64,000 bases of DNA from Fervidobacterium changbaicum. GTDB lineage: Bacteria; Thermotogota; Thermotogae; Thermotogales; Fervidobacteriaceae. The stretch spans positions 992,001 to 1,056,000 of the forward strand of contig NZ_CP026721.1 of NCBI RefSeq assembly GCF_004117075.1, given 5' to 3'. A program made the position numbers and the translations under genes. Each line of letters opens with the position of its first letter. Position 1 is the first letter of the stretch. Positions 10,261 through 39,237 of this stretch are shown piece after piece. The notes below the pieces were generated by a model. That model ran no database searches and was not told the DNA's origin. It saw nothing but the letters and a program-made list of their open reading frames with translations.

Positions 10261-11178
10261 GTGAAATACACATTTTCTGAAGAAGTTAAAGGTGAATTAT
10301 GTCAAGTTGATGTTCTCAGCCAGGAAGAGGCACGGGCTGAGATTGTTGGTTATTTAAAAGGTAAAGGAACATACGTGAAAACTTCGGTTGATAGCTATAT
10401 TTTGCTCGAAGTTGGTTTCATACCAGCTGCTCGTAGGGTCATGAATTTGCTGCACATTTTAGGAACGGACAAGAAAAAGCTTACACTGATAAAAAACAAA
10501 CTCCAGCGCAAAAGAGTTCAGATCTTTATTCCAACAGACATCTTAAACAAACTCCAGTTGTCCATACTCTCAATGCCTAAAGAAATCCAAGAAGATATAG
10601 GTTTATTCGGTGCATTTTTGAGAGGCTTCTTTGTCGCTTCTGGATCTGTTACCGACCCAGCAAAGAACTATCATTTCGAATTGGTTTCTTATAACGAACA
10701 ACTACTGTATTTCATTGATAGAAAACTCGAAGATTTTCTTGGTGTAATTGGAAAAATCACAAAGTTGAGGTATAATTATAGGTACTACTTAAAAAGGGGT
10801 TACGACATACAAGAAGTTTTAGAATTAATGGGCGCAATTCGTGCAGCGTCGCATATAGAAAAAATCACTACATCTCGGGAGATAAAAGCGGATATAAACC
10901 GCACTCTTAATTTTTTGAGTGCTAATGCTAAAAGAACAGGCGAAAGCAACGCAAAACAAATCAGAGTTATCAACGAAGTTATTAAAAGAATCGGCTTGGA
11001 AAATTTGCCTGACGAACTGAGGAAACTGGCTCTGCTTAGGTTGGAGCACGAAGACCTTCCTTTAACGGAACTTGGAGAACTCTTCGACCCACCAATGACG
11101 AAAAGCATGGTGTATAATAGGTTTAAGAGATTAGAAAAGCTTTTGGAAAAGACCAAAGGAAGTGGTGAGGGAGAATGA
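10261..11178 (+). CDS. whiA: Sporulation/division regulator WhiA family DNA-binding protein
   Basis: WhiA combines a LAGLIDADG homing-endonuclease-like fold with a C-terminal helix-turn-helix. Here the N-terminal part starts [14 protein letters not shown], the endonuclease-like core includes [17 protein letters not shown], and the C-terminal HTH includes [24 protein letters not shown]. WhiA controls sporulation division genes in Streptomyces and influences division in Bacillus; targets here are unknown. I place the start at GTG 10261 (305 residues) after AGAGGTG, because the upstream GTG at 10231 lies inside yvcK and adds residues not seen in the family. The stop overlaps nrdR by four bases. 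Confidence 0.9.
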
Positions 11179-11645
11179 GGTGCCCATTCTGTGGTTACGA
11201 AGACACAAGAGTGCTTGATTCGAGGGAACTGAGTGAAGGTAGGGCGATAAGACGTAGGAGAGAATGTCCGAACTGTCATGCGAGGTTTACCACGTATGAA
11301 AGGTACGAAACTGGACCAATAACAGTAATAAAAAAGGACGGCAGAAGGGAAAAATTCGACAGAAGAAAGATATTGAACGGTCTTCTGAAGGCTTTTGAAA
11401 AGCGACCTGTCACTTTGGAAGATATCGAGCGAATAGTTGACAATGTCGTTTCGACTCTGCAAAAAAGTGGCTCGGTCGAAGTAAGTACTGAACAAATCGG
11501 GAAAATTGTCATGGAAGAGTTGAAGAAAATAGATCAAGTAGCCTACGTTCGTTTCGCATCGGTTTACAAAGATTTTAGAGAAATTGATCAATTTATAGAA
11601 GTCATCAAAGAATTGCGCGGGGAATCACAAAAACAAAGTGATTAA
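11175..11645 (+). CDS. nrdR: Transcriptional repressor NrdR
   Basis: NrdR represses ribonucleotide reductase genes when deoxyadenosine nucleotides fill its ATP-cone. The 156-residue protein has the N-terminal zinc ribbon with Cys3, Cys6, Cys31 and Cys34 ([18 protein letters not shown]), followed by the ATP-cone ([26 protein letters not shown]). It is coupled to whiA through ATGA. Two NrdR boxes lie upstream of nrdG-nrdD in this same window at 38369-38415, so a probable target is visible about 27 kb away. Confidence 0.95.
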
Positions 11646-35745: not shown

Positions 35746-37671
35746 TCAAGCTTTGTAGAATACCCGCTTTGGGTATTCTTCTTTTCTTCTAACGCTGTTG
35801 AACGAACTCACGGGCACAAGGTATCCCACTATCCTCAAGTATTCATCCGCCTTTTTCTTCCCACATACGGGGCATTGTTCGCCATAGAACGCGTGGCCTT
35901 CTTCACATACGCTTATCTTTTGATTAAATGCAAAATACACAACACCCGTATTTGCAACCAAATGGACCATCTTCCATGCTTCTTCTTCCGTTCTAAACGG
36001 TGAATCTACGTTTATATGCAGTATCGCCCCGCCTGAGACTTTCTTATCAAACATGCCTGAGTATTTTATCCTGTTTAGCATGTCCGTGTCTGTTGTGAGT
36101 GGGAGCCATTGGTTGGAATAAAGCACATACTCTGTGTTGTAAAGGAGTCTATCTTTTTGAGCAAAGGTAACCGCCGCTTTCTCAGCAGGCACCTGTTCTA
36201 TATTGAACGTGAACCCGTACTTTTCAAAAGCTATATCGTTCATCCTTCTGATTTCGTCAAGTACTGCGTTTACAAATTCTTCCCCTTCTTGTGTATATTT
36301 CACCCCGTCGATGTCCACCATCGTCAAACCGAGCAATTCCATCGCCTCGTACAGTCCGTTTATACCAACCGTTCCGTACTGCCTGTTTAGATCCATCAGT
36401 CCCAAGCTATAAAGCGGCAGTACGCCCTGCTGGATTCTTTCTTGAATTATGTTTCTGATAGCTGCCAAAACTTTCTGGACGAGTTCTACTTTCTCGGCAA
36501 GCCTTTTGATAAAACCTTCCTTATTCCCTATTTCAAGTGCGATCCTTGGCAGGTTTATCGTCACTACCTTGAAAGAACCGATGTTCAAGTCCGAGCCACC
36601 GATGGAGTTCACCATACCAGACAGCTTATCAGGTCCCATCTTAAACTTCAGTTCCTTTGTAGAACTCGTGAGCCTGCAGCAAGAAGCCACCGCATCAATG
36701 CTATCAGAGACGTACCAGTTCGTATCTTGCCATCTTAGGTTGACTTTGTTTATAAACCTCGCACTGTCTTCATCAACAAACTTACCATCTTTGTACAGCA
36801 AAGATGCTGTTAAAACCGGGAACGTGAACATCTGCTTTTCTCTTTCTTGAGATATCCACAGCCAGTATTCTTTCTGCAATTCTATTATCTGCTCAACGTA
36901 GTCTGTGATAGCCGAACCATCTGGATAACTTTCTCCTTCGAAAATCGTTTTGATGTAGTTCCTATCCAGATATGTGAAGTTCGTGTAAGGAGACTGAGTG
37001 CCTCTTATCGGCTGGTTAATCGAGTAGGTGAAAATCTGGAAGTGCTGGTGCAGGTATTCCTTTGCCTTACCTTTTGGTATTACTCCACTTTCCAAATCTT
37101 TTCTGTAAAAATAAGCAAGCCACACAAAGAAATCCGGCAAACCAACGGCACCTGATTGCTGGTTGGATGCAAACATGACAAATTGTATCACGTGCTGGAT
37201 GTAAGAAGAAAGATGTTTTGCCGGGATTGATTTTATACTATCGATGAAAAATAATCCCTTTTCCACAATTGGTCGCAAGGAATAAGCGTAACAATACGGC
37301 TCGAATGCGGCATGATGAGCATCGTGCAGGTAAATATCTCCGTACATTTGGAATCTAAGGAACTTCTTCGCATCTTCCAAACCAAAGAGTGACTTCATTC
37401 GTTCGTAAATGTAGTAGATGGAGTACAGCTTCGACCAAGGTTTTACAACCTCGTTGAAGTACGTGTAGACGTTTGTACTCCTCACATTTGCATTTGCATC
37501 TATCGTAGAATTCAGAATTCCGCTGTTGAAAAAGTGCTCTGTGAACTTTGCTACATCAAGCTGCCAGCTGATACCTTCTAAATCCAAAAATGGTTCTGGA
37601 ATGCTTGATATTTCTTCAATAAAATCATCAGAAAAACTGAACGATTTAAGCACATCTCTCAACAGTTGCAT
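35746..37671 (-). CDS. nrdD: Anaerobic (class III) ribonucleoside-triphosphate reductase
   Basis: NrdD reduces ribonucleotides to deoxyribonucleotides with a glycyl radical made by NrdG. The 641-residue protein has the barrel sequence MYGDIYLHDAHH, FVMFASNQQSGAVGLPDFF, an active-site Cys pair SCCRLTSS (about residue 326), and the glycyl radical motif RIVGYL with Gly616. Just before it is a metal-binding stretch CEEGHAFYGEQCPVCG. There is no N-terminal ATP-cone: the protein opens directly with the barrel, so overall activity control by dATP at an ATP-cone is unlikely. It overlaps nrdG by 13 bases, and NrdR boxes precede the pair. Confidence 0.93.
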   Translation of the reverse strand: MQLLRDVLKSFSFSDDFIEEISSIPEPFLDLEGISWQLDVAKFTEHFFNSGILNSTIDANANVRSTNVYTYFNEVVKPWSKLYSIYYIYERMKSLFGLEDAKKFLRFQMYGDIYLHDAHHAAFEPYCYAYSLRPIVEKGLFFIDSIKSIPAKHLSSYIQHVIQFVMFASNQQSGAVGLPDFFVWLAYFYRKDLESGVIPKGKAKEYLHQHFQIFTYSINQPIRGTQSPYTNFTYLDRNYIKTIFEGESYPDGSAITDYVEQIIELQKEYWLWISQEREKQMFTFPVLTASLLYKDGKFVDEDSARFINKVNLRWQDTNWYVSDSIDAVASCCRLTSSTKELKFKMGPDKLSGMVNSIGGSDLNIGSFKVVTINLPRIALEIGNKEGFIKRLAEKVELVQKVLAAIRNIIQERIQQGVLPLYSLGLMDLNRQYGTVGINGLYEAMELLGLTMVDIDGVKYTQEGEEFVNAVLDEIRRMNDIAFEKYGFTFNIEQVPAEKAAVTFAQKDRLLYNTEYVLYSNQWLPLTTDTDMLNRIKYSGMFDKKVSGGAILHINVDSPFRTEEEAWKMVHLVANTGVVYFAFNQKISVCEEGHAFYGEQCPVCGKKKADEYLRIVGYLVPVSSFNSVRRKEEYPKRVFYKA

Positions 37672-38273
37672 AGCACGTCCCCCTTTTTTATGTCTACTTT
37701 TTGTACTTTGCTCTTGTTTTTCAAGATTTCCAAGATCTTGAAAAGTTCTTCTTTTGTGAGATACATTTGATTTGCCGATGCAGGAAAACCGTCACGATGA
37801 TACTTTTTCATATACCGCCCAAGTACGTACTCGTCGAAGTAATCCAAAGGTATGTCAAGCTCTAACAAATCCTTCGGACTTCTCCAAGAATAGACAAGTA
37901 CAACCACTTGCTCTTGAAAAATCTCTTTGACCGTCTTTGCAAGCATATACGCAAACCTTCTGTTTCGCACAGACAAAGGTTCTCCGCCGAGCAATACGAG
38001 TGCAACTTTATCGTACGTACTCAAAAGCAACCTAAGCTTAGCTATAGTGTGTTCAACAAGGTGCCTGAAGTCGATAGCAAACCTTTCGTCAAACTCCCAT
38101 GTCTCAGGATTATGACACCCCAAACATTTCGGGAACGCATCGCACCCCTGGAAGTAAACACTAACGGAAGGAAGGCTCGGATGGTCGCCTTGCATTACAC
38201 GTAAAACACGTAGAAGCGGTTCATCAAACATCAGTGAGCTGAATAGTTCAGCAACTTGACCCTTTTGTTCCAT
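37659..38273 (-). CDS. nrdG: Anaerobic ribonucleotide reductase activating protein (radical SAM)
   Basis: NrdG uses S-adenosylmethionine and a [4Fe-4S] cluster to make the glycyl radical on NrdD. The protein has 204 residues from ATG 38273, chosen because GGGGGG lies just upstream and residues before it are unlike the family. The cluster region reads YFQGCDAFPKCLGCHNPETW, i.e. CX5CX2C rather than the usual CX3CX2C. Later there are VALVLLGGEPL (GGEP) and a C-terminal Cys pair. The gene order nrdG then nrdD and the overlap support the identity. The two-residue insertion in the cluster loop is unusual. Confidence 0.88.
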   Translation of the reverse strand: MEQKGQVAELFSSLMFDEPLLRVLRVMQGDHPSLPSVSVYFQGCDAFPKCLGCHNPETWEFDERFAIDFRHLVEHTIAKLRLLLSTYDKVALVLLGGEPLSVRNRRFAYMLAKTVKEIFQEQVVVLVYSWRSPKDLLELDIPLDYFDEYVLGRYMKKYHRDGFPASANQMYLTKEELFKILEILKNKSKVQKVDIKKGDVLCNC

Positions 38274-38368
38274 AAAAACCCCCCAGTTTAGTACAAACAT
38301 TAAACACAGTACATGAGTTCGGAAAGTAGAAATATACACCGAAGCAAGAGGCTACAAAGGTCGATAAA

Positions 38369-38415
38369 ACACATTATATCGTAGAATTTCCATATTATTA
38401 CACAATATATAGTAT
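38369..38415. promoter_or_regulatory. Two NrdR boxes in front of nrdG-nrdD
   Basis: Box 1 is ACACATTATATCGTAG (38369-38384) and box 2 is ACACAATATATAGTAT (38400-38415). Each resembles the published NrdR consensus acaCwAtATaTwGtgt, and they start 31 bases apart, three helical turns, as is typical. Box 1 contains the likely -10 of the nrdG promoter, so binding would block RNA polymerase. Confidence 0.75.
38373..38378 (-). promoter_or_regulatory. -10 box of nrdG-nrdD
   Basis: TATAAT on the minus strand lies inside NrdR box 1, about 100 bases before the nrdG ATG. The -35 region falls at the near end of box 2 (no clear consensus). Confidence 0.55.
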
Positions 38416-38439
38416 CACATCTGATGCCAGATTGTCAAG

Positions 38440-38471
38440 AAAAAAGGGTGGGAAAATTCAAAATCCCACCC
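38440..38471 (-). terminator. Terminator of the branched-chain amino-acid transport operon
   Basis: On the minus strand GGGTGGGA and TCCCACCC form an eight-base stem, followed directly by TTTTTTC. It lies 56 bases after the livF stop. Confidence 0.85.
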
Positions 38472-38526
38472 AAGATATTGTATTAACATTATTTCGACAA
38501 CAACAATTAGTTATCAACGGATAGAA

Positions 38527-39237
38527 TTACAATCCCAGGTACGCCTTTTTTACCTGTTCATCCTTGAGCAGATCTTTTGCTGGGCCTTCAAGAACGATAT
38601 TACCTGTTTCCAAGACGTATCCGTAGTGCGATATGTTCAGTGCACCAACAGCATTTTGTTCCACAAGTAGTATAGTCATCCCTTCTGAATTCAACTTCTT
38701 GATAATTTCAAAAACCTCTTCCACAAGTATCGGAGCAAGGCCAAGCGAAGGCTCATCCATCATGAGCACCTTTGGCCTGCTCATAAGAGCTCTAGAGATG
38801 GCCAGCATCTGCTGTTCACCACCAGAAAGTGTTCCACCGAGCTGATTTTTCCTTTCAGCAAGCCTTGGGAAAAGTGTAAAAACCCATTCCAGATCTTGTT
38901 TGATTCCATCTTTGTCTTTTCTATTGAAAGCACCCATCATGAGGTTTTCCATAACAGTCAGGTTGGGAAAGATCCTTCTTCCCTCTGGAACAAGACATAC
39001 CCCCATCCTGTTTATCTGGTGTGGAGGTTGGTTTTGGACTTCTTTACCATTGAAGATGATTCTTCCCCTTCTTGATTTCACCAAACCTGCAATTGTGGAA
39101 AGCGTGGTAGTTTTCCCCGCACCGTTTGCGCCGATGAGTGTCACTATCTGTCCCTGTTCCACCTTAAAAGAAATACCTTTGATAGCGTGGATTGAACCGT
39201 AAAATACATGGAGCCCCTCAACTTCAAGCACCGGCAT
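38527..39237 (-). CDS. livF: Branched-chain amino-acid ABC transporter ATPase LivF
   Basis: This is one of two ATPases of a Leu/Ile/Val-type importer. The 236-residue protein has Walker A GANGAGKTTT, LVPEGRRIFPNLTV (typical of LivF), signature LSGGEQQMLAISRAL, Walker B VLMMDEPSLGLAP and the switch His region LLVEQNA. It overlaps livG by 14 bases and is the last gene of the operon, followed by a terminator. Confidence 0.94.
   Translation of the reverse strand: MPVLEVEGLHVFYGSIHAIKGISFKVEQGQIVTLIGANGAGKTTTLSTIAGLVKSRRGRIIFNGKEVQNQPPHQINRMGVCLVPEGRRIFPNLTVMENLMMGAFNRKDKDGIKQDLEWVFTLFPRLAERKNQLGGTLSGGEQQMLAISRALMSRPKVLMMDEPSLGLAPILVEEVFEIIKKLNSEGMTILLVEQNAVGALNISHYGYVLETGNIVLEGPAKDLLKDEQVKKAYLGL

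Follow-up and report, generated by a model that had tools for sequence, protein, structure and literature searches.

The repressor NrdR is listed among the widespread regulators in RegPrecise 3.0, which includes a Thermotogales collection (PMC3840689), and RegPrecise predictions reported in PMC4493059 place tmNrdD, tmNrdG and tmNrdJ under NrdR control in eight Thermotogae. This predicted regulon has the same repressor, the same targets (nrdD, nrdG and nrdJ) and the same bacterial group as the locus described here. NrdR requires dATP together with ATP (or ADP) for binding, and it sits on two boxes as a tetramer, with the DNA kinked (PMC9110341, PMC12176259). In PMC12051234, binding by four NrdRs was strongest with 15-17 bp between the boxes, the same spacers gave repression of an E. 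coli reporter, and the accepted spacer lengths are 14-17 or 24-27 bp.

Two characterised operators provide further comparisons. The nrdDG operator of E. coli has two boxes 15 bp apart, to which NrdR with ATP and dATP binds with a K_D of 160 +/- 37 nM (PMC12176259). The class III RNR operon of Fervidobacterium changbaicum is likewise preceded by two boxes 15 bp apart, the measured binding being that of E. coli only, and the gene order differs, with nrdD before nrdG in E. coli (from the operon name) and nrdG before nrdD here. In Streptomyces coelicolor the nrdRJ operator puts a class II RNR under NrdR, and D15 and R17 of the protein are reported to be important for specific binding (PMC9110341). 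There nrdR precedes nrdJ, whereas here nrdR has genes matching whiA and greA on either side and nrdJ is elsewhere in the genome. No paper in the collection searched dealt with both NrdR and Fervidobacterium.

We describe a box pair before nrdG-nrdD which we judge, with a probability of about 0.94, to be a standard two-box NrdR operator over the promoter of these genes. Because the RegPrecise prediction covers Thermotogae (PMC4493059), the site would be a real, ordinary instance of a circuit that is essentially already known.

The nrdG-nrdD locus and its paired boxes

The window is the whole stretch of 64,000 nucleotides that was analysed, and the features used below are as follows.

11175-11645, plus strand: nrdR, the repressor gene (TIGR00244, 203.9 bits, cut-off 124.65)
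35746-37671, minus strand: nrdD, class III RNR (NF006127, 843.8 bits, cut-off 545; TIGR02827, 724.6 bits, cut-off 568.3)
37659-38273, minus strand: nrdG, putative class III RNR activase (best match TIGR02826, 94.1 bits, below the cut-off of 151.7)
38369-38384, minus strand: gene-proximal putative NrdR box (box 1), holding TATAAT
38400-38415, minus strand: gene-distal putative NrdR box (box 2), holding the likely -10
38409-38414, minus strand: candidate -10 hexamer TACTAT, extended (TG one base before), with an 18-base spacer, inside the distal box
38433-38438, minus strand: candidate -35 hexamer TTGACA of the nrdG promoter, from the promoter scan
38439-38471, minus strand: likely intrinsic terminator of the upstream ABC-transporter gene run (8-bp stem, 10-base loop, T run; fold -15.8 kcal/mol)
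38527-39237: livF-like gene of the ABC-transporter run upstream of nrdG, from a profile match

The tentative name nrdG rests on the TIGR02826 match, on the place of the gene before nrdD and on the identical gene pair in relatives. Its start, the ATG at 38273 with a G-rich stretch just before it, was picked by reading the sequence, and the gene overlaps nrdD by 13 bases. Among the records compared, from which very near ones may be absent, the closest named relative is Fervidobacterium sp. UBA5837, with 57% identity in NrdG. The product of nrdD carries an NSIGG motif which resembles the SIGG finger-loop tip of Thermotoga maritima NrdD, where isoleucine is reported in the expected radical-cysteine position (PMC4493059). 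Directly before the nrdG -35, and downstream of the livF-like gene, lies a terminator-like hairpin (38446-38471) with its T run; a scan limited to loops of 8 bases did not list it. No match in 38200-38600 attained the gathering score of its RNA family, and the three matches found there are weaker.

NrdR boxes follow a palindromic consensus of 16 bases, ACACWATATATWGTGT. Each box was scored by its matches out of 16 to this consensus, and each pair by the sum of both boxes. The preliminary description had reported two NrdR-like elements of 16 bases here, and both are present as described: on the minus strand upstream of nrdG-nrdD, 12/16 (proximal) and 15/16 (distal), separated by a 15-base gap with starts 31 bases apart. 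Their sum of 27 makes them the top pair at gap 14-17 in the window, the best elsewhere in the window being 22, and when the 250 bases upstream were dinucleotide-shuffled 300 times, no shuffle scored above 23. The 15-bp spacer lies within the 14-17 bp range given in PMC12051234, which corresponds to three helical turns centre to centre, and the predicted operator fits the published sequence requirements of NrdR.

When the paired core pattern was sought at its exact spacing in the whole genome, the nrdG site was found at 2 mismatches and one other place at 3. Read backwards as a control, the pattern matched twice forward and twice in reverse with no more than 3 mismatches, leaving no excess for the real pattern. 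This genome-wide search alone does not separate the nrdG site from chance, and because the backwards control gave equally many matches, more weight was given to conservation and the shuffle test. The pattern for a single box lacks specificity: with as many as 3 mismatches allowed, it matched 45 times forward and 40 times in reverse, against 81 and 83 times when read backwards. The regular expression published for paired boxes is not specific on its own either, since it has four short-spacer matches in the window.

Two other places in the genome were considered and taken as chance matches. As a regulon member we rejected 1837950-1837965, which has one mismatch to the single-box pattern built from both boxes, is inside a 429-codon ORF and is absent from the pair search. 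As an operator we rejected the pair at 1205875-1205915 (3 mismatches). It falls within a 58-codon ORF, a 95-codon ORF starts 357 bases further on, and none of the nearby ORFs listed is an RNR gene; at full length this pair scores 23, more than the 22 of the nrdJ pair in our genome. One 16-mer, ACACAATATGTCTTAT, recurs unchanged at six listed places (genome 29415, 259503, 361157, 661553, 1944067 and 2091174) and is perhaps part of a repeated element.

Position of the predicted nrdG promoter relative to the boxes

Promoters were tabulated for 9 nrdJ loci and for the 20 nrdG loci whose pair is strong; the sequence listing includes 17 nrdJ loci together with 18 of the 20. The promoter scan found TTGACA-18-TACTAT at 38438-38409, where TG extends the -10, so that the box pair overlaps a polymerase site recognised by consensus only. 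In G000, G008, the first G004 copy, G007, G006, G001 and G002, TACTAT is located at the start of the upstream box, 17-18 bases from a TTGACA or TTGACT; in the second G004 copy TACAAT takes its place, again with a spacing of 17-18 bases. The distal-box promoter is present in all eight same-genus loci examined for it, that is, in seven besides our own, G003 not among them. The preliminary description had taken the TATAAT of box 1 for the nrdG -10; this hexamer is indeed in box 1, but the better and more conserved -10 is the TACTAT of box 2, and the earlier placement was probably wrong.

It could also be that there are two promoters, with a -10 in each box and the proximal TATAAT used too, an arrangement compatible with an NrdR operator. 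A proximal candidate does match the promoter consensus at 9/12 in our genome (GTAATA-17-TATAAT) and at 10/12 in G007 (TGTACA-17-TATAAT), and in G001 the proximal TTGATA-17-TATATT is one match better than the distal candidate. However, a proximal TATAAT is found in 2/8 same-genus loci (our own and G007) against 8/8 for the distal promoter, and we regard a second promoter as unlikely.

Outside the genus the position is more varied. G030 has TTGACC-18-TACAAT at the position equivalent to the same-genus promoter, and G013 and G009 have TTGACT-18-TATACT two bases earlier than that position. The eight loci of one family, f3 (G033, G037, G035, G025, G031, G027, G029 and G021), have TATAAT or TAAAAT with a preceding TG after the downstream box; in six of the eight the first-ranked candidate is TTAACA-16-TAGAAT ahead of the upstream box, which has at least as many matching bases, and in G021 this candidate ties on hexamers. 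The promoter may plausibly have shifted between families. That the NrdR box pair stays in place across the bacterial order and the promoter moves within it, with the -10 in the upstream box in the genus and after the downstream box in f3, is a tentative proposal to which we give slightly less than even odds; if true, repression could be tuned with the operator unchanged.

Box pairs before nrdG in related genomes

A search for nrdG in 121 genomes (our own and 120 relatives) gave a match in 25, from which G078 was dropped for its weak match, leaving a comparison set of 24 genomes and 25 loci in which G004 has two copies. The rows left out of this set were two weak matches, L033 (G078) and L036 (G002), and L035, which is the second half of the gene split in G021. 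The contig of G003 ends early.

Since the 24 genomes are kin, their nrdG loci are not independent, and in 20 of the 25 the top-scoring pair at gap 14-16, sought within 250 bases upstream of the match, had a score that 0 of 300 shuffles reached. The gap among these 20 is 15 in four (G000, G008, the first G004 copy and G002), 16 in one (G047) and 14 in 15. Four further loci, all of one genus (G012, G015, G017 and G019), have the order nrdD, nrdG, nrdJ, with nothing directly before nrdG and a pair with gap 16 and a sum of 28-31 before nrdD; absence of boxes from this genus was considered and dropped, the pair being present before nrdD. The remaining locus, G003, has a marginal pair only (sum 22, 1/300 shuffles). 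When gaps of 1-50 were allowed, a gap of 48 in G009 and of 44 in G003 was listed ahead of the NrdR-like gap with an equal sum. Conservation of the two boxes before nrdG or nrdD at the same spacing, which the preliminary description had proposed as its test, is therefore seen in 20 loci directly, in four by way of nrdD and in one marginally; the pair is kept at 14-16 bases, but the spacing is not exactly 15.

G004, of the same genus, has two nrdG-nrdD loci (L011 and L034), each with its own box pair. The box and promoter sequence of the second copy resembles that of G030, from another family, and this operon may have been transferred together with its operator. In G021, nrdG was matched as two adjoining pieces (L032 and L035), possibly as a result of a frameshift or a sequencing error.

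The boxes of our own genome each hold a -10-like hexamer, which would suit the view that they are mere promoter sequence, A+T-rich -10 elements (TACTAT, TATAAT) resembling NrdR boxes by chance, but this is highly improbable, as two palindromes at a 14-16-base gap recur where just one has such a hexamer and the pair score is not reached by dinucleotide shuffles in 20/25 loci.

NrdR, nrdJ and the proposed circuit

The NrdR of this genome has 156 aa, and the TIGR00244 match, which upholds the repressor gene named in the preliminary description, is above its cut-off and covers profile positions 1-147 of 147. Cysteines C3, C6, C31 and C34, read by eye from the translation, are presumably those of the zinc ribbon, and several RNR models match residues ~50 to 137, which are taken to be the ATP-cone. 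When compared by eye with the residues named as DNA contacts of S. coelicolor NrdR in PMC9110341, the protein has the DNA-reading D15 and R17 as well as the backbone arginines, R12, R26-R29 and R37. NrdR is above cut-off in 31/31 genomes searched, including 8 without an nrdG match, and its presence does not discriminate among genomes. None of the eight best-scoring pairs in the window precedes nrdR, and this ranking gives no indication that nrdR is autoregulated.

A probable second target, located outside the window, was missed by the preliminary description.

Genome 368481-370349, minus strand: nrdJ, class II RNR, from a genome match

Before nrdJ there are CCACAATTCGTTGTAT and CCACAAGATGTGGTAT, 15 bases apart, the second of which runs into TATAAT with TG ahead. 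The pair is weak in our own genome (sum 22, 1/300 shuffles), and the support for an nrdJ operator is comparative. The search for nrdJ covered 22 of the 121 genomes and that for NrdR 31. The shuffle test was applied to 18 of the 22 nrdJ loci, leaving out G012, G015, G017 and G019, where nrdJ follows nrdG; the pair score was reached by 0/300 shuffles in 10 loci, by 1 to 5 in 7 and by 275/300 in G025, which has no pair. The best nrdJ pair of G030 and of G027 is not convincing. An extended TATAAT or TATACT is found at the end of the second box in 9/9 nrdJ loci compared.

The protein that binds is not readable from sequence, and another dimeric regulator, such as a redox or oxygen regulator, might occupy the boxes instead of NrdR, but we give this very little credence, since similar pairs precede the class II RNR gene nrdJ and the boxes resemble, by eye, the E. 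coli sites with measured NrdR binding (PMC12176259).

Control of nrdG-nrdD by NrdR, as first put forward in the preliminary description, is strongly supported by the box pairs of the relatives, the overlap with the predicted promoter and the intact NrdR. At high dATP, NrdR loaded with dATP and ATP would bind the two boxes as a tetramer, their centres being 31 bp and thus three helical turns apart. The bound protein would cover the distal-box -10 and the start region and block RNA polymerase, and less class III RNR would be made. Because a second, weaker candidate operator of like kind precedes nrdJ, both RNR classes would probably answer to one dNTP sensor, nrdJ with less certainty.

The nrdG-nrdD operator raises no new question by itself. 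What it adds is comparative support for the published prediction of one dNTP-sensing repressor for class II and class III RNR in Thermotogae, together with the exact candidate sites at which this repressor would act.
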